Assembly (NCBI GenBank): GCA_019237175.1
Contig: JAFAHP010000140.1
Location: 1 to 34,083 of the forward strand
From: Alphaproteobacteria bacterium
GTDB taxonomy: Bacteria > Pseudomonadota > Alphaproteobacteria > ATCC43930 > CGMCC-115725
Length of the DNA: 34,083 nt
Direction: 5' to 3'
This document shows positions 16,539 to 30,019 of the stretch, one piece after another. Below the pieces are notes generated by a model. The model had not been told where the DNA came from. It was given only the letters and a program-made list of their open reading frames with translations, and searched no databases. Every line of letters starts with the position of its first letter. Position 1 is the first letter of the stretch. The translations under genes were made by a program, and so were the position numbers.

Positions 16539-18773
16539 ATGCCATCTTTACCAACCGTCCTCCTCTGCGCGCTGACCGAGCTGCTGGTGAGCTTGGGCGT
16601 CGGGTTGCCGGTGACGCGCCGGCTGGTTGCCTCTCGCGCGTCTGCGTTCGCCATCGCGCCGATTGTGGGCTGGGCCGTGTTTAACGGGCTGGCGCTTCCG
16701 GTCCTGACGATGCTCGGCTTTACGCGTCCAACGGCGGTCTTCGTTTGTGCTTCTGCCATTGCTGGCGGGATTGCGGCTTTGCGGCGCGGATCCGTTCGCC
16801 AACAGGTAGTAGCCGAAGGAGTAGAGGTCCCGCTCGGACTCGTCACACCCGCAGCAGTGCTGGCGATTGTTCCGATGCTGGCGGTTTGGCCGAAATATGC
16901 GATGGGTGGGGTGCTTCTCAGCGAGGCGATGTTCGACCACAGCAAGGCCGCGATCGTCGACGAGATCGTCCGCCTCGGCCTGCCACCCGGTAATCCTTTC
17001 TTTGGCGATAGCGGGCCTCGCCTCGTCTACTACTATTTGTGGCATTTCAGCGCCGCTATTCCTGCTGCTATGTTTGGCGCCAATGGCTGGGAAGCCGACG
17101 CCGCGCTGACTTGGTTCAGTGCTTTCGCATCGCTGAGCCTGATGATCGGGCTGGCGCGAATGCTTGGCGGTAACAGGACGGTACCGCTTGTCGTCGTGCT
17201 GCTTAGCCTTTCAGCCTCCCTGAGGCCGGCGCTGAGCCTTGTCTTGCCTCGCGGTTTTCGCGATCAGGCACTATCGCAAAATCCCTGGCCGCAGAGTTGG
17301 TTATTTCAAGCGAGCTGGGCGCCGCAGCACGTAATGTCGGCGGGCTGTGTCGTGGCCGCTGTGTTGGTGCTCTGGCGTCTGGCGGTCTCGCGCGATCGGC
17401 TGATGGTGCCGTTGCTGGCCGTTATCGCCGCGGCCGGGTTCGAGAGTTCTGCCTGGGTCGGCGGTGTCATTTTTGGCGCAGCCGCACCGGCAATCACCAT
17501 CGCGTTTTTAACGATGGCCGAGAATAATCGAGCCCGCGTCGACCTAATTCTCGCCACCGCAACGGCGGCCATCCTAGCGCTGGTGATAGCATTTCCGTTT
17601 ACCCGCGAGGAGTTTGCTGCAACGGCGGCGCGGCATGCCGGCATGCCCATCGCCTTTCGCCCGTTCGCGGTGCTGGGGCAAATGGTCCCGGTGCCGATCC
17701 GTCCGTTTCTAAATCTCGCCGGATATTGGCTGGTCTTGCCGGCGATCGAGTTTCCGGCGGTCTTTTTTGCGGGAACCTGGGCGATTGCCGCCGCTGTTGC
17801 CGCGCGGGGCGCCCCCACCCTAACCCTCCCCTCCCCGGGCGTGACCTGGGGATCACGGGGGAGGGAAGGGTGGGGGGACCGACGGCTGGTGACCGCATTG
17901 GCCCTGCTCGCCGGCACCAGCTTTGCGGTCCCGTGGATTTTTGCCAGTACGATCGCCAACAATGACCTCGGTTGGCGCGGCGTGCTGCCCGGCCTGCTGA
18001 TATTGACGGCCTTCGCCGCCGTCGGCCTCGGCCGCTGGCTAGCGGGGTTTTCGATCGGGGGCCATCGGCACGGGCGGCCCCCCTCACCCTTCCCTCTCCC
18101 CCCTAGGGGGGAGAGGGTTGAGAAGGGTCGGCGAGGCGAACCCCCGGAACGCCCGCCCTCGGCGGGCGGCCGTCCGGGGGCTAACCCGGAGCTGGTTGAG
18201 GGGGGTGGTACCCGATGGGGCCTTGTTTTAGTCAACGCACGAGGGTGGGCTTGGGCGAGCTGCGTGGTCTGGGCGCTGGGCCTGTCCGGCGGTTTGCAGG
18301 TCGCGCGCGATAATGTTTCCGGTCTGCCAGCCCGGTCGGCGAGCGTCTTCGCGCAAGCGCCCGCACTCTGGGCGGCGGTGCGCCGGGATACGGGCCCCAG
18401 CGAGCGTGTCGCCAACAATCCGGCGTTCCTCGCCGACAGTGTGCGGTGGCCGGTCAACATTTCCTGGGCGCTGCTGGCCGACCGCCGGTCCTGCTATGCC
18501 GGCTGGAACCTGGCGCGGGCCTTTGCCCCGTTGCCTGAGGAGAAGATCGACGCGACGGATGCGCTGTTCCAGCGGGTCTTTGCCGGCGACGGCACGCGCG
18601 ACGATATCCGCCTGCTGGCGACCGATTTCGACTGCCACGTGGTCGTCCTGACGCCGAGCGACGGCGCCTGGCTTCATGATCCATTCGCAGCCAGCCGTTA
18701 TTTCCGCTTGGTCGAAGAACACGCCGGCAAATGGCGGGTCTATCGAATTGCCGGCGACGCCGGCCGGGAGTGA
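16539..18773 (+). CDS. GT-C-like polytopic membrane protein with repeat-derived insertions
   Basis: A 744-residue integral membrane protein with about 12 hydrophobic segments up to residue 540 and a soluble C-terminal domain of about 150 residues. A large loop after the early helices carries acidic residues: 'LSEAMFDHSKAAIVDEIVRL' and then 'YYYLWHFSAAIPAAMFGANG'. This organisation suits a GT-C glycosyltransferase that uses a polyprenyl-phosphate sugar, but no specific family is recognised. Two regions, about residues 425-447 and 515-560, are Pro/Gly/Arg-rich and come from palindromic repeats translated in frame (see the repeat entries). The second includes 'GANPELVEG', a peptide I associate with translated interspersed repeats. 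The 3' end overlaps the convergent GT2 gene by 34 bases. No clear ribosome-binding site precedes ATG 16539. Confidence 0.7.
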   Translation: MPSLPTVLLCALTELLVSLGVGLPVTRRLVASRASAFAIAPIVGWAVFNGLALPVLTMLGFTRPTAVFVCASAIAGGIAALRRGSVRQQVVAEGVEVPLGLVTPAAVLAIVPMLAVWPKYAMGGVLLSEAMFDHSKAAIVDEIVRLGLPPGNPFFGDSGPRLVYYYLWHFSAAIPAAMFGANGWEADAALTWFSAFASLSLMIGLARMLGGNRTVPLVVVLLSLSASLRPALSLVLPRGFRDQALSQNPWPQSWLFQASWAPQHVMSAGCVVAAVLVLWRLAVSRDRLMVPLLAVIAAAGFESSAWVGGVIFGAAAPAITIAFLTMAENNRARVDLILATATAAILALVIAFPFTREEFAATAARHAGMPIAFRPFAVLGQMVPVPIRPFLNLAGYWLVLPAIEFPAVFFAGTWAIAAAVAARGAPTLTLPSPGVTWGSRGREGWGDRRLVTALALLAGTSFAVPWIFASTIANNDLGWRGVLPGLLILTAFAAVGLGRWLAGFSIGGHRHGRPPSPFPLPPRGERVEKGRRGEPPERPPSAGGRPGANPELVEGGGTRWGLVLVNARGWAWASCVVWALGLSGGLQVARDNVSGLPARSASVFAQAPALWAAVRRDTGPSERVANNPAFLADSVRWPVNISWALLADRRSCYAGWNLARAFAPLPEEKIDATDALFQRVFAGDGTRDDIRLLATDFDCHVVVLTPSDGAWLHDPFAASRYFRLVEEHAGKWRVYRIAGDAGRE
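17811..17877. repeat. Palindromic repeat inside a coding region (unit 1)
   Basis: The left arm CCCCCACCCTAACCCTCCC pairs imperfectly with the right arm GAGGGAAGGGTGGGGGG around a CCCCGGGCGTGACCTGGGG-like centre. It adds about 22 residues ('PTLTLPSPGVTWGSRGREGW') to the membrane protein without breaking the frame. Confidence 0.75.
18081..18128. repeat. Palindromic repeat inside a coding region (unit 2)
   Basis: Hairpin with arms ACCCTTCCCTCTCCCCCCTA and TAGGGGGGAGAGGGTTGAGA plus AGGGT. It resembles unit 1 in its ACCCT/AGGGT arms. It is translated as 'SPFPLPPRGERVEKG'. Confidence 0.75.
18141..18180. repeat. Palindromic repeat inside a coding region (unit 3)
   Basis: CCCCCGGAACGCCCGCC pairs with GGCGGGCGGCCGTCCGGGGG across a short CTC loop. 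It directly follows unit 2 and is followed by a segment translated as 'GANPELVEG'. All three units keep the reading frame open. Confidence 0.7.
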
Positions 18774-19471
18774 GCGCTGCGAGCGGTCGCGACCCGAATA
18801 AAGGCTGCGGCGATCCGCAACGCGGCGCGCAGCGATCCGCGCAGCGATCCTGCGACCTTGGAGGCGCCGCCGCGACGCCGGCGATAGGGCATCGGCACTT
18901 CGAGAATGCGCAATCCGGCGCGTGCCGCCCGCATCTGCATTTCGAGATTCCAGCCATAGGTCATCTCGCGCATGTCCAACGCGTCGAGACAGGCTCGGCG
19001 AATGGCGCGATAGGCGCACATATCGGTGTACCACACGCCATAGAGCAGCTTGGTCCCGAGCCCGGCGGCCCGGCCCGCCAACAGCTGATGCCACTTCATC
19101 GCGCCCGGCTCGCGCGCGCCGCGGCTGCGCGATGCGATCACAAAATCGTATTCGTCGCGGCGGATCGGGTCGACGAGCCGCGCCATCAGGTCGCCGCGGT
19201 CGGCGCCGTCGCCATCCATAAACACGATGATCCCACACGCCAGCGGCACCGCGCCGACCCCGGCCATGCAGGCGCGTCCATAGCCCTTGGCGCCCAACTC
19301 AATCACGCGCGCCCCCGTGGCAGCGGCGACCACGGGGGTGCCGTCGCTGCTGCCGCCGTCGACGACAATGATTTCGCGCACGAGGTCACGCGGGATTTCC
19401 GTCACGACACCTCTGATCGACTGCACCTCGTCGAGTGCCGGAATGACGACGGCGACCGCTAAAGGCTCCAT
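18740..19471 (-). CDS. GT2-family glycosyltransferase, DPM1-like
   Basis: A 243-residue single-domain GT-A glycosyltransferase. 'LAVAVVIPALDEVQSIRGVV' is the nucleotide-binding first strand, 'IIVVDGGSSDGTPVVAA' follows, and the metal-binding acidic motif is 'FMDGDGADRGDL' (Asp86, 88, 91). The protein resembles the dolichol-phosphate-mannose synthase-like subset that loads sugar onto a polyprenyl phosphate. No C-terminal membrane helix is obvious. ATG 19471 overlaps the radical SAM gene by 13 bases; GTG 19492 is an alternative. It is the last gene of the six-gene operon. A polyprenyl-phosphate-sugar maker beside a convergent GT-C-like membrane protein is a sensible donor/acceptor pair, by inference. 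Confidence 0.88.
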   Translation of the reverse strand: MEPLAVAVVIPALDEVQSIRGVVTEIPRDLVREIIVVDGGSSDGTPVVAAATGARVIELGAKGYGRACMAGVGAVPLACGIIVFMDGDGADRGDLMARLVDPIRRDEYDFVIASRSRGAREPGAMKWHQLLAGRAAGLGTKLLYGVWYTDMCAYRAIRRACLDALDMREMTYGWNLEMQMRAARAGLRILEVPMPYRRRRGGASKVAGSLRGSLRAALRIAAAFIRVATARSAHSRPASPAIR

Positions 19472-20541
19472 CGCAATCCGCAATTGCGGCACGGCTGGGC
19501 CGGCGCCTCGCTCACCAATGCGGCGCGAAACTCTCGATACGCCGCGCCATTCCAGATCTCGCGCAAGCTCTCTTGGGTGGCATTGCCCAGCGTATAGGTC
19601 TCATAGCCGCGCGCCGAGAATGGTGCAATGCAGCAGGGTAATGCCCGGCCGTGGGCGGTAAAATACATCAACGACCATGGTCGGCGGCAGGCCGACCATG
19701 GCGCTTTTCCCACGCCGCGCTTCAGGCTAGTGCCGGGCTCGGTAGCGCCCGACGCGTCGATTGTAACGCCAAGCGCCCTGCCGAGCGCTTCAGCCGCGGC
19801 AATCGCCTGATCTTCCTCGCGCCGCGTCCTTTCAAACAGCGACGAATCCGCGCGCGCGAGGCCGCGGCCAAGATCGTCGAAGACAAGGCGTTGAAGATAG
19901 ACCTCGCTGATGCCGATCCGTGCCGCCAGCCGGACAAAGTCCGGGAGCTGCGCGATCGTTTCTTTGAGCCCGGTCAGCCACAACGAGACGCGCGGGGTCG
20001 ATGCGCCGAGTTCTCTTTGCAAGGCGACGAACTCGCTGAGGTTGCGGACGATGCGATCGAAGAAGTCCTTGCCGCGCACCTTGAAAAAGCTTTGGGCCTC
20101 GGCCGCGTCGAGCGATACGCGCAGCTCGTCGAGCCCGGTGGCGATGAGGTCCGCGCGTTTGCGCGGTGCCAACAGCGTGCCGTTGGTGTTGAACAGCACA
20201 TAAACGCCGCGTTCTTTGAGATAGCGGATCATGCGCGGCAGGTTCTTGACGAGCATCGGTTCGCCGACGCCGTGCAGCACGGCGCGCAGCAAACCCGGGA
20301 GCTGGTCGACGATCGAGGTAAAAAGCTGCCAGCTCATATCGGCCGGCGGCTCCAGCGCCTCGAAGGTGCGCGGACAGGTTTCGCACAACAGATTGCAGCG
20401 GTTGGTGACTTCGAGATAGACGCAGACCGGTGGCGCCTCGGCGACAGGCGAGCGCTCCTCGCCGACGGCCTCGAAATAGCGGCGGGCCGCAATCGGCGTC
20501 TCCTGCGGTATCTGCTGCATCGGCGGAGGCTCGCGACTCAT
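19459..20541 (-). CDS. Radical SAM/SPASM-domain protein
   Basis: A 360-residue radical SAM enzyme. The [4Fe-4S] motif CxxxCxxC is Cys49, Cys53 and Cys56 in 'EVTNRCNLLCETCPRTFE'. The barrel includes 'VLHGVGEPMLVKNLPRMIRY' and 'VLFNTNGTLL'. A C-terminal SPASM-type auxiliary cluster region has 'WSACRRPWSL', 'ALPCCIAPF', 'LGNATQESLREIWNGAAYRE' and a final 'PCRNCG'. SPASM enzymes modify peptides, sugars or small molecules; the substrate here is unknown and no small precursor peptide gene lies within the operon. ATG 20541 overlaps the preceding gene's stop by four bases, which fixes the start. Confidence 0.92.
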   Translation of the reverse strand: MSREPPPMQQIPQETPIAARRYFEAVGEERSPVAEAPPVCVYLEVTNRCNLLCETCPRTFEALEPPADMSWQLFTSIVDQLPGLLRAVLHGVGEPMLVKNLPRMIRYLKERGVYVLFNTNGTLLAPRKRADLIATGLDELRVSLDAAEAQSFFKVRGKDFFDRIVRNLSEFVALQRELGASTPRVSLWLTGLKETIAQLPDFVRLAARIGISEVYLQRLVFDDLGRGLARADSSLFERTRREEDQAIAAAEALGRALGVTIDASGATEPGTSLKRGVGKAPWSACRRPWSLMYFTAHGRALPCCIAPFSARGYETYTLGNATQESLREIWNGAAYREFRAALVSEAPAQPCRNCGLRWSL

Positions 20542-21329
20542 CGCACCCCTCCCAGGCCATCACCCATGGCCGCGGCGAGTAAACCCTCAAGGTCAAGCCG
20601 ACCAATGCAATCGGCGGTAGCTGCGGGCGAAAACGGATCGAGACCGTTGACCGGCGGTGAGGTCAATTCGCGGCACAGCCGGTACAACGCCGGGGCGTCG
20701 TCAACATCGTACCACGGATCGAGCTCGACCACGGGCAATCCAAGCGTCCGCGCCCGCGCCCTTGTCTGCGCGGCGACGGCGCTCGTGCTCCACTCGACAC
20801 GTTCGAACAAGTGGCAGTGTGGCGCCTTGATGCCCAGCACGTAATAGCCGCCATCCTCGGCCGGGCCGACGACAACCCGGTCACCGTCTTCGGCGAGGGT
20901 GGCGACCGCTCGCGACAGGAGTGCTGTCGGCAAATTCGGGCTGTCGGAATTCAGCAGGCACACCGCACCATATTGTTGAGCGAACAGCGATTGCGCGGCA
21001 TGCAACAGACATCGGCCGAAGCCCACGATATTGGGCGCGGATACCGCAGTCCCGTCGGCGAGGACGAGGCGCGTGCCGGAGGCCAGCATGCCGTCGAACG
21101 AAGTCTCCGATCCTGCCGGTGCGTATGCGACATAGCCCTCGATCGGCATGTCGCGGGCGGCCCGTGCGATGTTCTCGGTGATGTCGCGCAAAAAACTGGC
21201 GCTGAGCGCCGAGGCCATCGCCGGTGTCAACGGCGGCACCAGCCGGGTTTTGACCTGCCCCGGGACCGGCGCCTTCGCCATTACCGCGATCGCACAGCCG
21301 CCGGCGCGACCCGCCACGCTTTTTGTCAC
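20538..21329 (-). CDS. TIGR04282-type transferase (CofC-like, DUF2064)
   Basis: A 263-residue nucleotidyl/glycosyl-transferase-fold protein. 'CAIAVMAKAPVPGQVKTRLV' near the N-terminus, 'LLNSDSPNLPTALLSRAV', 'VVGPAEDGGYYVLGI' and 'LDPWYDVDDAPALYRL' are hallmarks of the family annotated as 'transferase 1, rSAM/selenodomain-associated' and often labelled as an arsenosugar biosynthesis glycosyltransferase. That label comes from gene neighbourhood, and neither ArsM nor ArsS is seen here. The family resembles CofC guanylyltransferase, so it may activate a phosphorylated substrate. GTG 21329 is chosen because it gives a 4-base GTGA overlap with the molybdoenzyme gene and includes the first strand; an internal ATG would cut that strand. 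Confidence 0.88.
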   Translation of the reverse strand: MTKSVAGRAGGCAIAVMAKAPVPGQVKTRLVPPLTPAMASALSASFLRDITENIARAARDMPIEGYVAYAPAGSETSFDGMLASGTRLVLADGTAVSAPNIVGFGRCLLHAAQSLFAQQYGAVCLLNSDSPNLPTALLSRAVATLAEDGDRVVVGPAEDGGYYVLGIKAPHCHLFERVEWSTSAVAAQTRARARTLGLPVVELDPWYDVDDAPALYRLCRELTSPPVNGLDPFSPAATADCIGRLDLEGLLAAAMGDGLGGVR

Positions 21330-22066
21330 GATCCGCTGAACCAATTGTAGCCACGATCTGCCCAGAACCCGCCGGGATAACGGTTGGTGACATAAATCGT
21401 CGTCACCCATTTGGGGTTCTTGAACCCGAGCTTGGTCGGGATCCGCACCTTGAACGGGTAGCCATATTTGACCGGCAGGATCTCGTCGGCAAATTTGACG
21501 GCCATAATGGTTTGCGGATGCAGCGCGGTTGGCATGTCGATGCTGCCATAATAACCATCTGCGCACTGAAAGCCGACATATTTCGCGGTAAGGTCGGCTC
21601 CGACGCGCTGCAGGAACGCACCGAGCCTCGGGCCGCTCCATTTGCCGATCATGCTCCACCCTTCGACGCAGACATGGCGCGTGATCTGGCTTTCCTGCGG
21701 CAGGGCATAGAGTTGATCGACCGACCATGGCCGCTTGTCGCCGATCAGCCCCGACAATTCGAGGCGATAATCGGCAGCCGTCAACCTCGGAGCATCCTCG
21801 GCGGGGAAGAATGCATTATAGCGAAAATCCTTGACGACATCGGTTTCGGCAAAGGTCGGGGCCAGCCGCCGATCGCTGAACAGAAACATCTGAGCCCGAT
21901 CATTCCACTGCGACATCAGCTTCAAGACCTTTTGCACGCTGTTATGATCGGAAATGTCGCAGCCGGTCAGCAAAGTCAGCGCTCCCAGACCCAATGTCTG
22001 GCGCAAAAAGAGCCGCCGCTCGATGCCGGCCGCACTCGGGGTGGGCTCCAGCAGCACAGGGCTCAT
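21326..22066 (-). CDS. Sulfite-oxidase-family molybdopterin oxidoreductase (MsrP-like)
   Basis: A 246-residue protein with the single Moco domain of the sulfite oxidase family, as in the periplasmic methionine-sulfoxide reductase MsrP/YedY. The probable Mo ligand is Cys133 in 'ITRHVCVEGWSMIGKWSG'; further family landmarks are 'ADYRLELSGLIGDKRPWSVD' and 'LPVKYGYPFKVRIPTKLGFK'. The leader 'ERRLFLRQTLGLGALTLLTG' followed by Cys36 combines a twin-arginine-like motif with a lipobox, so it is probably exported folded and tethered on the periplasmic side. The substrate is not evident. It overlaps the cytochrome b gene (ATGA) and the TIGR04282 gene (GTGA), and the cytochrome is its likely electron partner, in the manner of MsrQ but from a different haem family. 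Confidence 0.9.
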   Translation of the reverse strand: MSPVLLEPTPSAAGIERRLFLRQTLGLGALTLLTGCDISDHNSVQKVLKLMSQWNDRAQMFLFSDRRLAPTFAETDVVKDFRYNAFFPAEDAPRLTAADYRLELSGLIGDKRPWSVDQLYALPQESQITRHVCVEGWSMIGKWSGPRLGAFLQRVGADLTAKYVGFQCADGYYGSIDMPTALHPQTIMAVKFADEILPVKYGYPFKVRIPTKLGFKNPKWVTTIYVTNRYPGGFWADRGYNWFSGS

Positions 22067-22767
22067 CGCCGTTCCTCCTCGAGGGAATGCGGTGCATCCG
22101 ACGCGAGGCCAAAAACCATCGCAACCAGGGTCTTTGGCACCAGTGCCGTCAGCGCCAGATGCACGACGAGAAACGCGACGATCGCCGCCATGCCAAAGAA
22201 GTGAACGATGCGGGCAAATTCGTAGCCGCCGAACAACCAGGTCAATTCCTGCAATTGCACCGGCTTCCAGATTGCAAGACCGGACAGGATCGTGATCAGG
22301 ATTACGGCGAGGACACCCCAGTAGAACACCTTTTGTACGGCGTTGTACTCGCCCAGTTGATGGCTCAGCCGGCCGCGCAATGCTGCAACAAAGTCGCGCC
22401 AAAACGCATCCACCGTGATGGGAAGGAAATCGCGGCGGAAATGCCCCGACACCAAGCCGACGACGATGTAAGCGAGGTAGTTCAGCACCAGCACCCACAT
22501 CGCGGCGAAATGCCACAACAATGCATTCGCCAGACCGTCGTCGTTGCTGACCGCCTCGGTGACGGTGAAATCGCCTCCCAAGGTCCAGTTGTAGGGGAAG
22601 CCCCAATGGATCGGCAGTGCCGGATAATAGTTATAGATGCGCCAGCCGCTGCCGATCATGACGAAAATCGCCAATGCATTGATCCAGTGCATGATCCGCC
22701 GACTTAGCGGATGGAGTTGCACATTGGCCGCCGGCGACGCGGTATGAAATCGGGCTGGAGCGCTCAC
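22063..22767 (-). CDS. Cytochrome b (b561/Ni-Fe hydrogenase b-type)
   Basis: A 234-residue membrane protein with four or five hydrophobic helices. Candidate haem histidines are in 'LHPLSRRIMHWINALAIF' (His19, His27), 'ALLWHFAAMWVLVLNYLAY' and 'ARIVHFFGMAAIVAFLVVHL'. This matches the prokaryotic cytochrome b561 / b-type subunit fold that links the quinone pool to periplasmic oxidoreductases. It probably serves as redox partner of the MsrP-like enzyme encoded next. The GTG start at 22767 is preceded by GGAGG and overlaps the stop of the upstream gene as GTGA; the open frame further upstream is antisense-like noise. Confidence 0.88.
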   Translation of the reverse strand: MSAPARFHTASPAANVQLHPLSRRIMHWINALAIFVMIGSGWRIYNYYPALPIHWGFPYNWTLGGDFTVTEAVSNDDGLANALLWHFAAMWVLVLNYLAYIVVGLVSGHFRRDFLPITVDAFWRDFVAALRGRLSHQLGEYNAVQKVFYWGVLAVILITILSGLAIWKPVQLQELTWLFGGYEFARIVHFFGMAAIVAFLVVHLALTALVPKTLVAMVFGLASDAPHSLEEERR

Positions 22768-23606
22768 GACAAAACCTCCAATCCATCGGCGCGCAGCCGC
22801 TGGTGCGCCAGCGCACCCTGCAGGAATGCAATGAATTTCCCGGTGTTGGGGCTCAGTGAATGCTGCGTCTGGGCGAGCCAATAGACGACCGGAGGATAGC
22901 TTGCCGCTGGTAGGCGTTCGGCAATCATCAATGCGGGATCGGCCGCCACGTCGGTGGCGTAGACGATTGCCAGCGGCACTTTGCCTTGAGCCAAAAGATA
23001 TACGGCGTCGGCGGTGCCGACGACACCGATCGATTTGGCGCTGACCGCCTGCCACAGCCCTAGCGATTGCAACGCCTTTTGACTCGCGGCGCCGGCCGTG
23101 GCCGCCCATGGATCGACGATGGCGATCGGTTGTTTGCCCGCGGCCGCCGCCAAGCTTCCGGCGGCTGGAGACCCGGTGCCGGCGGCGCCCGCGCTGCCGG
23201 CAAGTGCGGCAACGACGAGCTGGTTGCGCCACACGCGTTCCAGTGTGCCGGGGCTGATCAACCCGCGCTTCGCCGCGGTGCCGGCGTTCGCCTCGCCTTC
23301 GCCGATCAGCACGTCAGCGCGCGCATGATGCGCGATCTGTTCGAGCAGCACCGCGGTCGGCGAGGCAAACACCCGAACATGGATGCCGGTCTCAGAACGC
23401 CACAAGGCGGCCACATCGGTGATCGCGTACGACAATGTCGGCTCGCAGAACACGACGACATCTGGCGCCACCGGGTAGTCGGCGTGTGCCGGGACGGCGG
23501 CCAGTAAGATAATCGGCAGCAACCACCCAATCGCGGCGGCGCGGCGGTTGTGGAGGATCGACCTGACACCCAGTCTTCCGCCGGAAGATCTCGCCATGTT
23601 CGGCAT
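22764..23606 (-). CDS. ModA-like periplasmic solute-binding protein
   Basis: A 280-residue exported protein. The signal peptide 'AAIGWLLPIILLAAVPAHA' ends near residue 42. The mature part starts 'DYPVAPDVVVFCEPTLSYAI' and contains 'VRVFASPTAVLLEQIAHHAR' and 'ADVLIGEGEANAGTAAKRGL', which parallel the oxyanion-binding loops of molybdate-binding ModA. Later segments 'GVVGTADAVYLLAQGKVPLA' and 'IVYATDVAADPALMI' also fit the type II binding-protein fold. No permease or ATPase gene accompanies it, so classical import is not supported. ATG 23606 follows 'agaggg'; it is the first gene of the operon. A partner or ligand-delivery role for the molybdoenzyme is possible but unproven. Confidence 0.82.
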   Translation of the reverse strand: MPNMARSSGGRLGVRSILHNRRAAAIGWLLPIILLAAVPAHADYPVAPDVVVFCEPTLSYAITDVAALWRSETGIHVRVFASPTAVLLEQIAHHARADVLIGEGEANAGTAAKRGLISPGTLERVWRNQLVVAALAGSAGAAGTGSPAAGSLAAAAGKQPIAIVDPWAATAGAASQKALQSLGLWQAVSAKSIGVVGTADAVYLLAQGKVPLAIVYATDVAADPALMIAERLPAASYPPVVYWLAQTQHSLSPNTGKFIAFLQGALAHQRLRADGLEVLS

Positions 23607-23844: not shown

Positions 23845-24417
23845 CTATCGCGCCTCGGTCCAGCTCTCGGAAAAAGCCAGCGCGCAGGTACTAAACGGCC
23901 GCCCTTCGCGCTGCATCGGCCAGGCGCGACCCGAAGCTTGCACCCCGTCGACGCTGAGCCGCGCGCCCAAGGCCGGGATCAAGAGAGTGCAAACGCCGTA
24001 GCGGCGGCCGCCCTCGCCGGGCTGGGTGTGGATCAACAGCGGTTCGCCGATGTCGTACCAGGTCAGCACGACTTCCTCGTCGGTCGTTACGATCCGCTCG
24101 GTCCAGAAATAATGCGGGTCGCCGGATTTGACGAATTCCGCGTCGGTAACCGGAATCCCGGTGTCGGCGGTCTCGGGATTGAGCATGCCTTGCACCGTGG
24201 TCTGCAACCAGCGCGCCATCGCGATGTTGTCGGAATAGATGCGCCAGCGGTCTTCGGTCAGCTCGCTTTTCACATAAAGGACATGGCCCGGGCCGCCCGG
24301 ACAGGTGATGATCCGCCAAAAGCTGGCGTTTGTGGTTTGCGGGCCGCCATCGGTCCCGCTCAGCCGGATAAAGGGGTTTTCGCCGGTCAGGATTACATGA
24401 TTTGGGTCGGCGGGCAT
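23845..24417 (-). CDS. Conserved-looking hypothetical protein (190 aa)
   Basis: A soluble protein without signal peptide or membrane helix, apparently beta-rich. Landmarks are 'NPFIRLSGTDGGPQTTNASF', 'VLYVKSELTEDRWRIYSDNI', 'EFVKSGDPHYFWTERIVTTD', 'EEVVLTWYDIGEPLLIHTQP' and the end 'FSTCALAFSESWTEAR'. The domain is not recognised. ATG 24417 has an excellent 'aaaaggag' five bases upstream; the frame extends further but without similarity or start signals. It points the same way as the operon at 23606 but is 238 bases away, so it is probably a separate unit. Confidence 0.7.
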   Translation of the reverse strand: MPADPNHVILTGENPFIRLSGTDGGPQTTNASFWRIITCPGGPGHVLYVKSELTEDRWRIYSDNIAMARWLQTTVQGMLNPETADTGIPVTDAEFVKSGDPHYFWTERIVTTDEEVVLTWYDIGEPLLIHTQPGEGGRRYGVCTLLIPALGARLSVDGVQASGRAWPMQREGRPFSTCALAFSESWTEAR

Positions 24418-24425
24418 CCGAACTC

Positions 24426-24437
24426 CTTTTCGAAAAG
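24426..24437. promoter_or_regulatory. Perfect 12-base palindrome at the ribosome-binding site
   Basis: CTTTTCGAAAAG is its own reverse complement and overlaps the Shine-Dalgarno of the 190-residue gene. It may be a chance palindrome, a small hairpin limiting translation, or an operator. Confidence 0.3.
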
Positions 24438-24597
24438 AAGCCGCGAGAGGGGGGAAAGCGGCGGGTCGTGTGACCAATGGTAAAGCATCGAGGGCGACGG
24501 CGCTATCGCGGGACGCCGCCGCCACGCCCCACCGCAAGGCCGCGTGTACATTTTTTTCGACGGCCCCAGCGGCGGACAAATAGTTTTTGGTCAGTGG

Positions 24598-24951
24598 TCA
24601 GGCCGACAGCAGGGGACCGTGATCGTCGCAGTGGTCGCCGTGTGGATGATGGAGATGGTCGCCGACACGGTAATCGGTGTGGTCGCCATGCGGCACCGCC
24701 TCGTGGCCGCAACCCGGGCCGTGGACATGCGCGGCATCATGGCCGCCACAGCTATGACCGGAAGTGCAATGGTCGGGGTTGTCGGCCGACACCTCGATCA
24801 CATGCTCGTCGACGTGCCCTTCATGAGGATGGTGGAGATGGCCGTCGTGCAGGTAGTCGGTATGCCCGCCATGGCGCACCGCCGGATGGCTGCAGCCTGG
24901 TCCATGTTGATGGGTGTGGCCGGGATGTTGGCTAGCAGTACAGGTCGGCAT
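24598..24951 (-). CDS. Histidine-rich metal-binding protein with two tandem repeats
   Basis: A 117-residue protein of which about 28 residues are His, with several Cys and Asp. Two copies of a unit are visible: 'HQHGPGCSHPAVRHGGHTDY' followed by 'LHDGHLHHPHEGHVDEH', and 'HVHGPGCGHEAVPHGDHTDY' followed by 'RVGDHLHHPHGDHCDDHG'. No signal peptide is evident, so it is probably cytosolic. Such His/Cys spacing suits storage, buffering or delivery of zinc, nickel or cobalt. ATG 24951 follows 'aaaggaag'. It lies next to a TonB-dependent uptake locus, which supports a metal connection. The metal and partner are unknown. Confidence 0.8.
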   Translation of the reverse strand: MPTCTASQHPGHTHQHGPGCSHPAVRHGGHTDYLHDGHLHHPHEGHVDEHVIEVSADNPDHCTSGHSCGGHDAAHVHGPGCGHEAVPHGDHTDYRVGDHLHHPHGDHCDDHGPLLSA

Positions 24952-25033: not shown

Positions 25034-25303
25034 CTACTGCCAGGGTCCGGCGCTCTGACTATCCGGGGCAGGCGAAACGCTCGGTAGTTGCGACAGCGCG
25101 GCGCCCAAGGAAGCGTTCTCCCCGCCCGGCAGGTTGCTCAAGCGGCGCTGATCGAGTGTATAGACCGTTGCACCTAGAGGCGGGGCGATTTCGGCGCGTG
25201 CCCGGTCGAGTCGGGCAGCGGGAGCGGCATAATCCGAAGAGGATTCTTGACCAGCGCACGCGCCAACCGCGATCAGCGTGCACATCACGATCGCCTGCTT
25301 CAT
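25034..25303 (-). CDS. Small lipoprotein resembling the receptor plug start
   Basis: An 89-residue protein with leader 'MKQAIVMCTLIAVGACAGQE', where 'VGAC' is a plausible lipobox. The mature part 'ARAEIAPPLGATVYTLDQRR' then 'LSNLPGGENASLGAALSQLP' closely follows the pre-plug segment of the receptor encoded divergently, 'ARINIEPRIGASTYTLGPSA' then 'IQNLPEAQNTPIDNAILQMP'. It ends shortly afterwards ('SVSPAPDSQSAGPWQ') before any barrel. It may be a truncated duplicate of a receptor gene that acquired a lipoprotein signal, or a real accessory protein that interacts with the receptor or TonB. The ribosome-binding site is weak. Confidence 0.65.
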   Translation of the reverse strand: MKQAIVMCTLIAVGACAGQESSSDYAAPAARLDRARAEIAPPLGATVYTLDQRRLSNLPGGENASLGAALSQLPSVSPAPDSQSAGPWQ

Positions 25304-25461
25304 CGTCGGGAGCTGGGCCGGTTCCTTCTTTTTTCAAGCCGAACTCGATCGGGGACGCGGTAAGGAGCAGCCCCCGCATAGGGTGGCCCCGCCAGCTCGC
25401 GCTTCCCGCCGCTATAAATCGGCTACTAGCTCCCTTGTCGAGCGCGGTAGACGTTTGTTAC

Positions 25462-25474
25462 GTTATATCATCGC
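25462..25474. promoter_or_regulatory. Candidate Zur-like operator half
   Basis: GTTATATCATCGC resembles the alphaproteobacterial Zur palindrome GTTATANNATAAC, with a perfect left half and a poor right half. It lies 50 bases upstream of the TonB-dependent receptor start, in the divergent promoter region shared with the small lipoprotein. The match is incomplete and could be chance. Confidence 0.25.
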
Positions 25475-25523
25475 GACCGATCAATTCCGATTCCGAACCT
25501 GCGATCAACGTGAGGCAAGGGGT

Positions 25524-27797
25524 ATGGGTCACATATTCAAGCGCGCAGGAGCTGCGCTCGGGCTCGCCGTCCTGGTCGCACTGGCCATTTCTGATGGCGC
25601 CAAAGCGGACGATGCACCGGTGTTGTTGACCGGGCTGCCTCCGATCACGAACGGCGCGCCCGGCGGGTCAAATGGGCTGCTTGTTCTCGGCGCAAATTCG
25701 CCCACCGACAGCACCGCACCCGCCTCGTCGCAGGGCAATGTCTCGCTCGACATCAACGTAATTGCCAAACAATTAAATGAGGCGCGAATCAACATCGAGC
25801 CGCGCATCGGCGCCTCGACATACACCTTGGGGCCGAGTGCCATCCAAAACCTGCCGGAAGCACAAAACACGCCGATCGATAATGCCATCCTGCAAATGCC
25901 CGGCGTCGACCAAGATAATTTGGCGAATGGCGGGCTCCATATCCGCAACGAGCACTTGAACGTCCAGTATCGCATCAACGGCGTCATCATTCCGGATGGT
26001 GTGAGTTTCTTCGGTCAGGATTTGAGTATTCGCTTTGTCGATTCGATGTCGCTGATTACGGGTTCTTTGCCCGCCGAATACGGTCTGCGAACCGCCGGCA
26101 TCATCGATATCCAGAGCAAGAGCGGCCTCGGAAACCCGGGCGGCTCGGTCGAAATGTACGGCGGCAGTTATACTACCCTCAACCCCAGCATGGAGGTCGG
26201 TGGCGCGGTCGGCAACTACAACTATTTCGTAACCAGCAATTACTACCAAAGCATAAATGGGATAAATGACGTAACGTCAAAATATTACCAGATACATGAC
26301 GACACTCAGCAGGTCCATGCCTTCGCCTATATCGATAAAATTCTCGATCCTCACAACAGAATCAGCGTGATGGGCGGCGAGTTCAACGGTGACTTTCAGA
26401 TACCAAACAACCCCGGCCAGTCGACGTTTCCTGGCATTACAGAAATCAATGGTCTCCCTTCATCGCAGTTCAACTCCGCTCACCTCACCGAGTTTCAGGT
26501 CGAGGGCAGCCAGTTCGGGGCGGTCTCATTTTTGCACTCATTGGGGCCTCTCGACTTCCAGATCTCGGATATAGTCAAGTACAGTTTCCTGCATTATTAT
26601 CCCGATCTGTTCGGTGACCTCGCGTTCAACGGCATCGGCGAGAATGCCGGCCGGACCAGCTTGGCGAACTTTGTTCAGGCAGAAGGGACTTACCGGTGGA
26701 CAGCCAACCACACGGTGCGCGGCGGTATCCTCTTCACCACCGAACACGTGACCTCAAACGAAAACGCGGCGGTGCTAGACCAGATCGGGGCCGACAGTTT
26801 TGGAAATCCGATCTATGCGACAGTCCCTTCATTTATAGCCCAGAGCAGCGCCCAGACGAGTTTTACCTATAGCGGCTATCTCCAGGACGAATGGAAAGTA
26901 TTGCCGGCGGTGACCGTCAACTATGGGGTCCGCGGCGATGTCATAAACGGTTTCACCACCGGACAGCACCTCAGCCCGCGTGTTAACGCGGTGTGGCAGG
27001 CGACGCCGACGACGACCTTTCACGCGGGCTATGCCACTTATTACACACCACCGCCGCAGGAGCTGGTTGCAACCGAGAATATCTCTGCGTTCGCGAATAC
27101 GACCGGGGCGCCCGCTTCTACTCAGAATTCCCCGATCAAGAACGAAACGGCCCAATATCTGGATGTCGGGGTAAAGCAGCAGGCGCTCCGCGGGCTCACA
27201 ATAGGCGTCGATGTCTATTACAAGCACGCGAACAATCTGCTCGACGAGAGCCAGTTCGGCGCACCCATCATTCTGACGCCGTTCAATTATCGCGTCGGCA
27301 TCAACAAGGGCGTCGAGCTGACGACCGAATATAACGTTGGAAATTTCACTTTCTACGGCAATCTCGCGATTGCAAACCAGCTGGCAAGCGGTATCGAATC
27401 AGCGCAGTTCAATTTCACTCCGGCGCAGCTTGCCTCGGCCGACAGCATGTTTGTCAACACCGATCACAGCCAGCTCAAAACCGAATCGGCCGGTGTAGCC
27501 TATCTGTGGCACGGGACACGGTTTACCGCTGACATAGTCGCCGGCTCCGGCCTGCGAACCCAGCCGCCCAACGATCCGACCTTCAATGGTGAGACGGTCC
27601 CGTCCTACGAACAGGTAAATCTGGGCATCTCCCATGTCTTTCCGGCGAGTTTTGGTGGCCCGGTGACCGTGCGTCTCGCTCTCATCAATCTGTTCGACAA
27701 GATCTACCTGTTGCGCAGCATGACTGGGGTTGGCGAGTTTGCCAATCAATTCGGACCACGCCGTGCCCTCTACGCGGGTCTCAAAAAGGAGTTCTGA
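25524..27797 (+). CDS. TonB-dependent outer-membrane receptor
   Basis: A 757-residue outer-membrane receptor. The signal peptide 'FKRAGAALGLAVLVALAISD' precedes a probable cleavage after 'GAKA'. The plug domain (about residues 85-200) contains 'YTLGPSAIQNLPEAQNTPID', 'LNVQYRINGVIIPDGVSFFG' and 'SLITGSLPAEYGLRTAGIID'. The beta barrel follows and ends with aromatic Phe in 'RRALYAGLKKEF', as expected for BAM-assembled barrels. ATG 25524 has 'aagggg' directly upstream; the longer open frame from 25278 is antisense to the lipoprotein. TonB, ExbB and ExbD homologues follow downstream, so uptake should be energised locally. The His-rich neighbour hints at a metal or metallophore ligand, but substrate is not determined. 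Confidence 0.9.
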   Translation: MGHIFKRAGAALGLAVLVALAISDGAKADDAPVLLTGLPPITNGAPGGSNGLLVLGANSPTDSTAPASSQGNVSLDINVIAKQLNEARINIEPRIGASTYTLGPSAIQNLPEAQNTPIDNAILQMPGVDQDNLANGGLHIRNEHLNVQYRINGVIIPDGVSFFGQDLSIRFVDSMSLITGSLPAEYGLRTAGIIDIQSKSGLGNPGGSVEMYGGSYTTLNPSMEVGGAVGNYNYFVTSNYYQSINGINDVTSKYYQIHDDTQQVHAFAYIDKILDPHNRISVMGGEFNGDFQIPNNPGQSTFPGITEINGLPSSQFNSAHLTEFQVEGSQFGAVSFLHSLGPLDFQISDIVKYSFLHYYPDLFGDLAFNGIGENAGRTSLANFVQAEGTYRWTANHTVRGGILFTTEHVTSNENAAVLDQIGADSFGNPIYATVPSFIAQSSAQTSFTYSGYLQDEWKVLPAVTVNYGVRGDVINGFTTGQHLSPRVNAVWQATPTTTFHAGYATYYTPPPQELVATENISAFANTTGAPASTQNSPIKNETAQYLDVGVKQQALRGLTIGVDVYYKHANNLLDESQFGAPIILTPFNYRVGINKGVELTTEYNVGNFTFYGNLAIANQLASGIESAQFNFTPAQLASADSMFVNTDHSQLKTESAGVAYLWHGTRFTADIVAGSGLRTQPPNDPTFNGETVPSYEQVNLGISHVFPASFGGPVTVRLALINLFDKIYLLRSMTGVGEFANQFGPRRALYAGLKKEF

Positions 27798-28071: not shown

Positions 28072-28149
28072 TAGGATTACCCAGCGGCTCCGAGGGATAT
28101 ATGGTCGGCTCAAATCGGCCCCCAACGACTTGTTCGCAGAGGCTTGCCC

Positions 28150-28833
28150 GTGCCCAATTCTCCCGTCTCACTTTCGGTTGTCAGCCTTTTTCTGCACGCT
28201 GATATCGTCGTCAAGGGTGTGTTGTTGCTATTGCTCGCCGCCTCCGTGTGGAGCTGGGCGGTCATTATCGACAAGTTGTGGCGCCTTGCCGCGGTCGGGC
28301 GGTCGGTTGAGGCGCATGAGGCGCTCCTCGCCGCGGCACATGGCGCACCCGACCTGATGGCACCATCTCGCCGACCGGGCGGCGGCGACCCGGCCGGCGC
28401 GGTGCTGGCGGCCGGCTTGCACGAGAGCGCCGAAGCGGCATGGGTTGCGCCCGAAAGCCCGGCCGAGCGGCGCGAGCGCATCGAGCGGGCGATGCGGCTG
28501 GTGCTGAACGCGGAATTGCGCCGGCTTGAAGCCCGCTTGCCATTCCTCGCAAGCCTGGCCTCGGCGGCGCCGTTTATCGGGCTGTTCGGCACGGTGTGGG
28601 GGATCATGCGCAGCTTTACCGGCATCGCCGCCGCCAACAATACCAGCCTTGCCGTCGTCGCCCCCGGCATCGCCGAAGCCTTGTTCGCCACGGCCATGGG
28701 GCTCGCCGCGGCGATCCCCGCAGTCGTCGCTTACAACAAGATCACCGTTGATCTCGGCCGCTTTGCCGGACGCATGAACGGTCTGATCGGGCGCTCGAGC
28801 ACCATCCTTTCGCGCGTCGCGGCGGAAACCTGA
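28150..28833 (+). CDS. exbB: ExbB/TolQ-type proton channel subunit
   Basis: A 227-residue inner-membrane protein of the MotA/TolQ/ExbB family. Helix 1 is 'VLLLLLAASVWSWAVIIDKL', and the family core is 'ASLASAAPFIGLFGTVWGIM' then 'VVAPGIAEALFATAMGLAAA' and 'IPAVVAYNKITVDL'. With its ExbD-type partner it forms the proton channel that powers TonB or TolA. Sequence alone is close to both ExbB and TolQ; the following TonB-like gene and nearby receptor favour ExbB. GTG 28150 is preferred over TTG 28144 because 'agagg' is spaced correctly for it. It is the first of three tightly packed genes. Confidence 0.82.
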   Translation: MPNSPVSLSVVSLFLHADIVVKGVLLLLLAASVWSWAVIIDKLWRLAAVGRSVEAHEALLAAAHGAPDLMAPSRRPGGGDPAGAVLAAGLHESAEAAWVAPESPAERRERIERAMRLVLNAELRRLEARLPFLASLASAAPFIGLFGTVWGIMRSFTGIAAANNTSLAVVAPGIAEALFATAMGLAAAIPAVVAYNKITVDLGRFAGRMNGLIGRSSTILSRVAAET

Positions 28834-28835
28834 CC

Positions 28836-29270
28836 ATGGCGATGGCAACGCGGCCCGTCGGCGAGAGTAGCGAGGAGCGCTATCAGCCGCTGGCCGAGAT
28901 CAATGTGACGCCGATGGTCGATGTCATGCTGGTGCTGCTGGTGATCTTTATGGTGACGGCACCGCTGTTGATGGTCGGCGTGCCGCTCGATCTGCCAAAG
29001 ACGCGCGCCGCGGCGATCACCGAGCACAAGAAGCCGATCATCCTCAGCCTCGACCGCGGCGGCGAAGTATTCATCGGTGACGATAAGGTGGCGCCAGGCG
29101 AGCTTGAACCCCGGCTTGCGGCACTCGCCGCCGAAGATCCCAAACGCATCGTCTTTGTCCGCGGCGACAAGACGATCACTTACGCGCAGCTGATGGACAT
29201 GTTGGGCGAGGTCAATCGCGCCGGTTTTGCGAAAGTGTCGCTGGTCGCCGAAGCCTCCGGGTCGAAGTGA
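28836..29270 (+). CDS. exbD: ExbD/TolR-type proton channel subunit
   Basis: A 144-residue protein with one N-terminal membrane helix. 'LAEINVTPMVDVMLVLLVIF' holds Asp29, the proton-carrying residue conserved in ExbD and TolR. The periplasmic domain contains 'IILSLDRGGEVFIGDDKV' and 'RIVFVRGDKTITYAQLMDML'. The gene starts two bases after the exbB stop and overlaps the tonB start by four bases, so the three are co-translated. ExbD rather than TolR is favoured by context. Confidence 0.87.
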   Translation: MAMATRPVGESSEERYQPLAEINVTPMVDVMLVLLVIFMVTAPLLMVGVPLDLPKTRAAAITEHKKPIILSLDRGGEVFIGDDKVAPGELEPRLAALAAEDPKRIVFVRGDKTITYAQLMDMLGEVNRAGFAKVSLVAEASGSK

Positions 29271-30019
29271 ACGGGTTCAGGCTGCCGCTCATTCTCTCGC
29301 TGGCGGCCCATGCGATCATCCTGGGACTGCTGGTGATGCTGCCGGCGCCGATACCGCCGGCGGCACCTTCGCTCCCGAGCGGGATTGAGGTCGCGTTCGC
29401 ACCGTCGTTGCCGGCGCCGCCGCCCCCGCCTGCGCCTCCCCCGGTCAAGGCCGAACCACCGCCGCCACCCCCGAAAACCGACACACCGCGTCCAGTGGCC
29501 CCGATCGAGCCACCGCCGCCTGCTCCCGAAGCGGCGGTCGTGGTTCCGGAACCGCTCCTGCTACCGCCGCCGCCAAAGCCGCCGGTCCCGCCGCGGCGGG
29601 TCGCGGTTCGGCGCGTCGAGCGGCCAGTGACGCGCCCGGAGGAAGCGCCGGTAGCGCCGGTTGTTCCCGTGGCGCCGGCCCAGCAGGCGGCACTCGCGCC
29701 GGCGCGGGTGCGCCCACCTGCGTCCGCGGCTGTCAGTCCGGGATATCAAGCGCTGCTCGGCGAATGGCTGAATAGCCATAAGCGCTATCCCGAGGGTGCC
29801 CGCGAACACGGCGAGCAGGGCCGCGCGATATTACATTTTGCGGTCGAACGCAGCGGCCGGGTCACCGAATTCGCGGTTGTCAAAAGCTCCGGTTACCCGG
29901 ATCTCGACCAAGGGCTGGAGGAGATGATGCGGGGTGCGATTTTGCCGCCTTTTCCTGCCGACATGCCGCAATCCAGCATCAGCGTCTCGGTGACGATCCG
30001 CTTCACGCTCGAGCAATGA
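29267..30019 (+). CDS. tonB: TonB-family energy transducer
   Basis: A 250-residue protein with an N-terminal membrane anchor ('LPLILSLAAHAIILGLLVML'), a long Pro-rich rigid linker from about residue 30 to 150, and a C-terminal TonB domain. The last contains 'YQALLGEWLNSHKRYPEGAR', 'GRAILHFAVERSGRVTEFAV' and 'VKSSGYPDLDQGLEEMMRGA'. The 'YP..A....QG...' pattern is characteristic. The GTG start overlaps the exbD stop as GTGA. It would span the periplasm to energise receptors such as the one encoded at 25524. Confidence 0.92.
   Translation: MNGFRLPLILSLAAHAIILGLLVMLPAPIPPAAPSLPSGIEVAFAPSLPAPPPPPAPPPVKAEPPPPPPKTDTPRPVAPIEPPPPAPEAAVVVPEPLLLPPPPKPPVPPRRVAVRRVERPVTRPEEAPVAPVVPVAPAQQAALAPARVRPPASAAVSPGYQALLGEWLNSHKRYPEGAREHGEQGRAILHFAVERSGRVTEFAVVKSSGYPDLDQGLEEMMRGAILPPFPADMPQSSISVSVTIRFTLEQ

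Follow-up and report, generated by a model that had tools for sequence, protein, structure and literature searches.

A conserved radical SAM, DUF2064 and glycosyltransferase operon with an exchangeable molybdoenzyme module

Why should a periplasmic molybdoenzyme share an operon with a radical SAM protein and a glycosyltransferase? The question is raised by six overlapping genes on the minus strand (18740-23606) of an alphaproteobacterial contig, the whole of which (34,083 nt) we refer to as the window. The original prediction assigned each of these genes to a protein family, reported overlaps of 4, 4, 4, 4 and 13 bases, and read the layout as a single pathway towards a sugar-containing product. 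Coordinates and overlaps were reproduced exactly, and Pfam and NCBIfam searches agree with all six family assignments; what the gene list had overlooked is a probable GT-C membrane glycosyltransferase that forms part of the unit. The six genes, and the one that faces them, are as follows.

22764-23606, minus strand: ModA-like periplasmic substrate-binding protein (280 aa, ATG start)
22063-22767, minus strand: cytochrome b561-type membrane subunit (234 aa, GTG start, 4-base overlap with the modA-like gene)
21326-22066, minus strand: SUOX-family molybdoenzyme (246 aa, ATG start)
20538-21329, minus strand: DUF2064/TIGR04282 nucleotidyltransferase-like protein (263 aa, GTG start)
19459-20541, minus strand: radical SAM/SPASM protein with a reduced (twitch-type) SPASM domain (360 aa, ATG start)
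18740-19471, minus strand: GT2 glycosyltransferase (243 aa, ATG start)
16539-18773, plus strand: polytopic membrane protein facing the six-gene operon (744 aa, 34-base convergent overlap with the GT2 gene)

Judging from the overlaps, the six genes may well be translationally coupled, and identical 4-base overlaps are found at several cluster junctions on two annotated Methylobacterium plasmids. A scan of the operon region turned up no sigma-70-like promoter, a weak test in an organism this GC-rich, and the promoter and terminator scans as a whole were uninformative.

Is the arrangement peculiar to this genome? Relatives of the radical SAM protein are encoded in 199 stretches of the GTDB 220 genome collection, the best 80 of which belong mostly to Acetobacteraceae, Rhodospirillales and Methylobacterium. 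Our tallies are based on the 51 loci with adequate flanks, a sample picked by similarity to the 19459-20541 protein and in which one part of the Alphaproteobacteria predominates. Rather than occurring singly with unrelated partners, the homologues make up a conserved unit consisting of the radical SAM gene (51/51), a GT-C glycosyltransferase (50/51, of the GT87 type in 47 and of the candidate 744-aa type in three), the GT2 (49/51, stand-alone in 48 and fused to GT87 in one) and DUF2064 (48/51). The same gene order recurs in dozens of species, so that the six-gene arrangement reflects more than chance: it is a conserved operon and not a single-genome oddity. Within the order to which this bacterium belongs, the radical SAM gene is found in 15 of 43 genomes, 13 of which carry it on one contig with a TIGR04282 gene, while in the other two the radical SAM contig stops first. 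Second TIGR04282 copies in the order, which have other surroundings and several of which lie beside a different GT2, were kept apart from the cluster. Distances between radical SAM proteins correlate with those between their DUF2064 (rho 0.75), GT87 (0.65) and GT2 (0.61) partners, none of 500 permutations giving values as high, and more weakly with those of the cytochrome (CYTB, rho 0.39) and SUOX (0.28, the lowest of the five) proteins. In Miltoncostaea, GT87 and GT2 are a single fused protein; the unit is spread across the Alphaproteobacteria, and an actinobacterium carries the same gene set with the GT87-GT2 fusion. Among the carriers are culturable Methylobacterium species (M. radiotolerans, M. 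aquaticum and M. hispanicum) as well as numerous Acetobacteraceae, the cluster sometimes lying on large plasmids. The cluster is present in many soil and plant-associated bacteria, and the present locus is one version of it. Searching the literature for the gene combination, and for TIGR04282 or DUF2064 together with radical SAM, returned nothing relevant; the claim that no system of this composition has been described holds for the literature searched.

What might such a cluster make? The radical SAM protein matches PF04055 and PF13186 above the Pfam cut-offs, and its cysteines, a CX3CX2C motif (C49, C53, C56) followed by C285, C303, C304, C351 and C354, are invariant across 24 sequences; judged by these matches and motifs, it is a member of the SPASM/twitch radical SAM superfamily. 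Its nearest relatives are BtrN and PqqE by profile comparison and SkfB and DesII by comparison of a structure model (mean pLDDT 70.9). Among its nearest relatives of solved structure are BtrN, which acts on a cyclitol, DesII, which acts on an NDP-sugar, and BlsE, which acts on the sugar of a nucleoside. The DUF2064 protein passes the curated TIGR04282 cut-off (138.8 bits against 134), and its closest solved structure, 3cgx, bears the description 'putative nucleotide-diphospho-sugar transferase'. The GT2 matches PF00535 and has its best NCBIfam match in AglJ (110 bits, cut-off 325), with dolichyl-phosphate hexose transferase likewise below cut-off. It is probably of the polyprenyl- or dolichyl-phosphate hexose synthase type, although, since it reaches no NCBIfam equivalog cut-off, we infer its lipid-phosphate acceptor rather than read it from a family name.

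The GT-C enzyme appears to take an unusual form here. GT87 (PF09594-type), encoded between DUF2064 and the radical SAM gene, is absent at this locus, though common among the 51 and present in a genome of the same genus (G003). GT87 matches exist elsewhere in this bacterium's genome; we did not take them for the missing partner, and the one inspected does not lie beside other core genes. None of the four loci with the 744-aa gene (this locus, L020, L021 and L094, three of the four from one genus) has a GT87 gene, and the GT87 loci lack the 744-aa gene. Homologues in the 29-33% identity class lie on nine rhizobial plasmids, all nine of which also carry a UbiA resembling decaprenyl-phosphate phosphoribosyltransferase; this UbiA and an ArnE-like protein are their neighbours, and on symbiotic plasmids such as pNGR234a the family is annotated 'hypothetical protein'. 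A Pfam search with the 744-aa protein gave no match, its structure model has a mean pLDDT of 35, comparison with GT87 using a profile of only four sequences found no similarity, and literature searches with the NGR234 y4n gene names yielded nothing relevant. Because of the mutual exclusion with GT87 in four loci and the company that its rhizobial homologues keep, the 744-aa protein appears to be a candidate GT-C enzyme that takes the place of GT87 and is unrelated to it.

We suggest that an unusual sugar is probably built on a membrane lipid carrier and attached outside the cell membrane. The DUF2064 protein would convert a sugar phosphate into an NDP-sugar, the radical SAM enzyme would alter that sugar, nucleoside or NDP-sugar, the GT2 would transfer the modified sugar to polyprenyl phosphate and, after flipping, the GT-C enzyme would hand the sugar over to a periplasmic acceptor. 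A purine nucleoside phosphorylase, where present (13/51 loci, about a quarter, and not in the window), might supply pentose 1-phosphate or clear 5'-deoxyadenosine; the tethered SUOX enzyme, the cytochrome b561 and the binding protein might perform a quinone-linked redox reaction on the product, the acceptor or a periplasmic oxyanion. As a general description, that of a pathway for a sugar linked to polyprenyl phosphate, in which a twitch/SPASM enzyme modifies the sugar or nucleotide sugar and a quinone-linked periplasmic redox step is optional, we regard this scheme as evenly balanced between right and wrong. A bolder version, in which DUF2064, radical SAM and GT2 enzymes make a new and widespread class of lipid-linked sugar that the GT-C enzyme passes to a periplasmic acceptor and that a dedicated, tethered molybdoenzyme then reduces or oxidises, bringing cytosolic radical and periplasmic molybdenum chemistry to bear on one product, strikes us as rather doubtful.

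How closely is the molybdoenzyme tied to the remainder of the operon? The SUOX protein matches PF00174 (97.7 bits), contains a conserved RHVCVEGW and finds its closest solved structure in YedY/MsrP (1xdq). A lipobox-like LLTGC comes after its twin-arginine motif, signal and cysteine both being kept in relatives, so that the earlier description of the enzyme as tethered is reasonable. The cytochrome subunit matches PF01292 (79.3 bits), and cytochrome b561 genes occur in 34/51 loci. The ModA-like protein passes TIGR01256 (77.1 bits, cut-off 62.5) and has ModA proteins as its closest solved structures; neither modB nor modC lies within the operon. A relative at L028, a fragment only, scores 24.2 bits, and so the slot may not always hold a ModA. 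Of two SUOX subfamilies that occupy the same slot (36/51 loci in all), one comes with the ModA-like protein (15/51 loci) and the other with a PRC-type protein (18 loci), the two partners never appearing in the same locus. SUOX is missing from 15/51 loci, four of which have an acyl-CoA dehydrogenase/PhnD-like/radical SAM set nearby instead, and relatives of Rv1679-Rv1680-Rv1681 replace the module in G255, G238, G009 and Miltoncostaea. Elsewhere, in the same family, the SUOX-cytochrome pair stands alone, away from radical SAM genes. Together, the molybdoenzyme, the cytochrome b561 and the ModA-like protein form a module that can be exchanged. Given its absence from 15 loci and its separate existence elsewhere, its tie with sugar synthesis may be a loose one, and the single pathway of the original prediction, although correct in pointing to a conserved operon, is too strong a term where this enzyme is concerned.

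Taken further, the same observations raise the possibility, which we think real if somewhat unlikely, that the operon unites two neighbours, one a sugar-lipid cluster and the other a redox pair of SUOX and cytochrome b561, that have a transcript in common but not a product. The stand-alone pairs, the absence or exchange of the pair in relatives and the weak SUOX-radical SAM distance correlation are all in keeping with such a neighbourhood. However, the two SUOX subfamilies in one slot and the SUOX-cytochrome pair that is inverted yet still near in L042 and L094 suggest repeated recruitment.

Alternatively, the radical SAM enzyme might mature the adjacent molybdoenzyme or another periplasmic protein, with the glycosyltransferases modifying that same protein, by analogy with the TIGR04317 and TIGR04311 enzymes that are thought to serve tungsten and other metalloenzymes. 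These two families are indeed its best NCBIfam matches (138.1 and 110.8 bits), the peptide enzymes SkfB and SuiB are among its top structural matches, and SUOX is nearby in most of the loci. Yet the higher score is far under the TIGR04317 cut-off of 380, the DUF2064 and glycosyltransferase neighbours stay with the radical SAM gene in most of the loci that have no SUOX, G009 and G010 have close relatives of the SUOX protein but no radical SAM gene next to them, and the radical SAM-SUOX distance correlation is the weakest of the five, all of which makes maturation improbable.

We are more sceptical still of an arsenosugar-like route, in which the radical SAM enzyme would adenosylate a substrate, a nucleoside phosphorylase would release adenine, and the remaining ribose product would pass to DUF2064 and GT2, in the manner of ArsS in arsenosugars and of HpnH/HpnG in hopanoids. 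The TIGR04282 match, the nucleoside phosphorylase in some loci and the PhnD-like oxyanion-binding protein of one variant would suit it, but the radical SAM enzyme is of the SPASM/twitch kind and ArsS (TIGR04167, cut-off 300) is not among its 25 best listed NCBIfam matches, which score 138 at most, while the GT2 obtains 37.5 bits against the TIGR04283 cut-off of 182. With both cut-offs so far from reached, the TIGR04282 name does not imply arsenosugar synthesis. Nor is ArsM found among the operon genes and scanned neighbours, and in this bacterium's genome (assembly about 80% complete) no nucleoside phosphorylase of the cluster type was found, the only PF01048 match adjoining mtnA-like genes.

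Least credible of all is a system for a glycosylated RiPP or peptide cofactor, akin to those for mycofactocin or PQQ, for which the SPASM domain and the presence of PqqE, MftC and SkfB among the relatives might speak, but whose family cut-offs are far off (MftC, TIGR03962, 59.4 bits against 265; PqqE 63.5 against 381), for which the overlapping genes leave no space inside the operon, and for which no conserved small ORF, only small or spurious families, was found near the radical SAM gene across loci, a search that a distant precursor would escape. The largest of these small-ORF families is apparently antisense to the cytochrome gene. Arsenosugar synthesis and a RiPP system are not supported by the tests run.

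If the cluster does specify a polyprenyl-phosphate-linked sugar pathway, its product would be a novel sugar, lipid-linked or at the surface, on which radical chemistry has acted, DUF2064/TIGR04282 proteins would gain a role beyond arsenic metabolism, the 744-aa membrane family would become a candidate polyprenyl-phosphate-sugar glycosyltransferase, and there would be a tractable setting in which to seek the substrate of the orphan SUOX-cytochrome b561 pair.

Several known systems resemble parts of this locus. Mycofactocin and PQQ clusters likewise have a SPASM radical SAM enzyme, and mycofactocin a glycosyltransferase, but here no precursor peptide was found and scores are far under the cut-offs. 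The mycobacterial Rv1679-Rv1680-Rv1681 set (NF049984, NF049985, NF049973), for which our literature search found no paper, is absent from this contig, and its relatives elsewhere fall below the family cut-offs. MsrPQ/YedYZ, the periplasmic methionine sulfoxide reductase, also pairs a TAT-exported molybdoenzyme of the SUOX fold with a heme-containing membrane partner; our enzyme, by contrast, scores 83.9 bits against an equivalog cut-off of 207 (NF003767), is a predicted lipoprotein and is accompanied by a cytochrome b561 (PF01292) instead of MsrQ. Arsenosugar biosynthesis (ArsM, ArsS, TIGR04282, TIGR04283) similarly clusters TIGR04282, radical SAM and GT2 genes, with a phosphorylase in some relatives, but the present operon has a SPASM/twitch enzyme, a GT2 outside TIGR04283 and no ArsM, and adds a GT-C enzyme and the molybdenum module. 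Finally, there are the decaprenylphosphoryl-arabinose pathway and the arabinosylation of Nod factors by rhizobial noeCNHOP (PMC5080398, PMC2443382). Unlike these, the operon described here is without a UbiA phosphoribosyltransferase and has a GT2 and a radical SAM enzyme; like them, the operon would follow a polyprenyl-phosphate sugar logic, and the rhizobial homologues of the 744-aa protein lie near UbiA/HAD phosphoribosyltransferase-like genes.

The order of the cluster recurs in relatives, and its six overlapping minus-strand genes are borne out, as are the overlaps of 4, 4, 4, 4 and 13 bases between them; Pfam and NCBIfam matches agree with the families named in the original prediction, which overlooked a GT-C type membrane glycosyltransferase (PF09594; GT87) that is usually present in relatives. 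The source assembly comprises 4.0 Mb in 823 contigs (completeness ~80%), of which the window is one contig.

16539-18773, plus strand: 744-aa membrane protein facing the operon
18740-23606, minus strand: ModA-like protein, cytochrome b561, SUOX-family molybdoenzyme, DUF2064/TIGR04282 protein, radical SAM/SPASM protein (rSAM, 19459-20541), GT2 glycosyltransferase
23845-24447, minus strand: 200-aa protein upstream of the ModA-like gene, no Pfam or NCBIfam match
24598-24951, minus strand: 117-aa His-rich protein with HGxHTDYxxxDHLHHPH-type repeats, no family match
25278-27797, plus strand: TonB-dependent receptor
28144-30019: genes resembling ExbB, ExbD and TonB, judged by sequence

The 200-aa protein has a 90% identical counterpart at the same position in a same-genus locus (L021), and the His-rich protein is possibly metal-binding. 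No TonB receptor, ExbB, ExbD or TonB-like gene was found close to the rSAM cluster in the relatives' mapped loci.

With the window rSAM protein as query, the GTDB 220 genomes yielded 199 relatives; the best 80, which were retained, come from Acetobacteraceae, Rhodospirillales, Methylobacterium and one Caulobacteraceae MAG. Neighbourhood mapping by tblastn gave the recurrent order [binding protein] - cytochrome b - SUOX - DUF2064 - GT87 - rSAM - GT2. Annotated plasmids of Methylobacterium radiotolerans and M. aquaticum carry this gene set too, and there the cytochrome-SUOX, DUF2064-GT87 and GT87-rSAM pairs each overlap by 4 bases. Since rSAM occurs in only 3 of 398 genomes sampled evenly across the phylum (the window's own included), the system is patchy; within the window's order it is present in 15 of 43 genomes. 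TIGR04282 shares its contig in 13 of these 15; the rSAM contigs of the remaining pair, G005 and G021, stop before the expected DUF2064 position. A second TIGR04282 family in the order (L127, L129, L131), weakly similar to the window DUF2064, adjoins a different GT2. On a Miltoncostaea oceani plasmid (L102), 2741-4696 and 4720-5904 encode GT87+GT2 and DUF2064+NUDIX domain fusions.

We tallied neighbours in the 51 loci whose flanks extend at least 5.5 kb upstream and 2 kb downstream, a sample skewed towards close relatives of the window rSAM, with counts that are lower bounds because few query sequences were used: DUF2064 48, GT87 47, 744-aa protein 3, GT2 48 plus one fusion, SUOX 36, cytochrome b 34, nucleoside phosphorylase 13, DoxX-like 14 and aminotransferase 14. 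SUOX and cytochrome b form two subfamilies, one partnered by a ModA-like protein (15 loci), the other by a PRC-type periplasmic protein (18 loci), and these partners never share a locus. The pair also occurs apart from rSAM (G009, G010). Near rSAM in Miltoncostaea (Actinomycetota), G255, G238 and G009 stands a set of acyl-CoA dehydrogenase, PhnD-like binding protein and short radical SAM protein; in Miltoncostaea these proteins best match the Rv1679, Rv1680 and Rv1681 families, below cut-off. Further loci have neither the pair nor the acyl-CoA dehydrogenase/PhnD-like set. Distance correlations with rSAM (DUF2064 0.75, GT87 0.65, GT2 0.61, cytochrome b 0.39, SUOX 0.28) all exceed 500 permutations, and we use only their ranking because genome relatedness alone could produce them. 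The single pathway as originally proposed may or may not take in the molybdoenzyme.

The rSAM protein has a CX3CX2C motif, and its SPASM domain is reduced (C285-X12-G-X4-C303, C351-X2-C354). Its nearest solved relatives by profile are BtrN and PqqE, and by structural model (pLDDT 70.9) SkfB, DesII, SuiB, PqqE, BlsE, MoaA, viperin and BtrN, several of which use sugars, nucleosides or NDP-sugars. No conserved short ORF was found close to rSAM in the loci examined, which disfavours a peptide substrate encoded nearby. At its start the SUOX protein carries a twin-arginine motif and a lipobox-like LTGC; relatives keep both. The protein also retains RHVCVEGW, aligned with RMRCVEAW in YedY/MsrP.

The most economical reading of this gene content and order, with each step suggested by family membership, is that DUF2064 would turn a sugar phosphate into an NDP-sugar, rSAM would modify it by radical chemistry, GT2 would load it onto polyprenyl phosphate and a GT-C enzyme would transfer it on the periplasmic side; in the window variant, SUOX and cytochrome b561 may add a quinone-linked periplasmic redox step, with an oxyanion-binding protein. 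The relatives' nucleoside phosphorylase might supply pentose 1-phosphate or remove 5'-deoxyadenosine; the sole PF01048 match in the window's ~80% complete genome adjoins mtnA-like genes.

GT87 is missing from the window operon and adjoins rSAM in same-genus species (G003, G005, G001). The 744-aa-type protein occurs in four loci (the window, L020, L021, L094), all lacking GT87, and in none of the GT87 loci. Homologues (29-33%) lie on nine rhizobial plasmids, all of which also encode a HAD-UbiA relative of decaprenyl-phosphate phosphoribosyltransferase; in the pNGR234a and CCGE531 regions inspected, a single oxidoreductase gene separates the two, and genes for an ArnE-like SMR protein and for an epimerase are nearby. 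This neighbourhood resembles the rhizobial noeCNHOP route, which makes decaprenyl-phosphate arabinose and in which NoeP is the proposed transferase (PMC5080398). Given the exclusion, the neighbours and this resemblance, we propose that the 744-aa protein may be a polyprenyl-phosphate-sugar-dependent transferase replacing GT87. Profile comparison of the family, four sequences only, with GT87 gave no similarity, and structure prediction no usable model. This family, whose pNGR234a member lies at L137:8007-9983, is a conserved, unnamed gene of rhizobial symbiotic plasmids. Two insertions that keep the reading frame, PTLTLPSPGVTWGSRG... and SPFPLPPRGERVEKGRRGEPPERP..., occur in the window gene at ~17800-18220 (plus strand). 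They are missing from its homologues in L020, L021 and L094 and look like short mobile repeat elements within coding sequence; a scan of the window found no tandem repeat there. In L021 an unrelated 352-aa membrane-like gene (6726-7784; weak sub-cut-off TrbL_3 match) lies between rSAM and GT2.

A literature search, with most subscription journals outside its reach, found no paper on this gene combination, so that an earlier description is possible. Window proteins do not reach the NCBIfam cut-offs for MsrP, MftC, PqqE or TIGR04317. As for the arsenosugar system, the TIGR04282 protein passes its cut-off, whereas rSAM and GT2 fall below those for ArsS and TIGR04283. The cluster is real and conserved, and compared with known systems it combines known kinds of enzyme in a new way.
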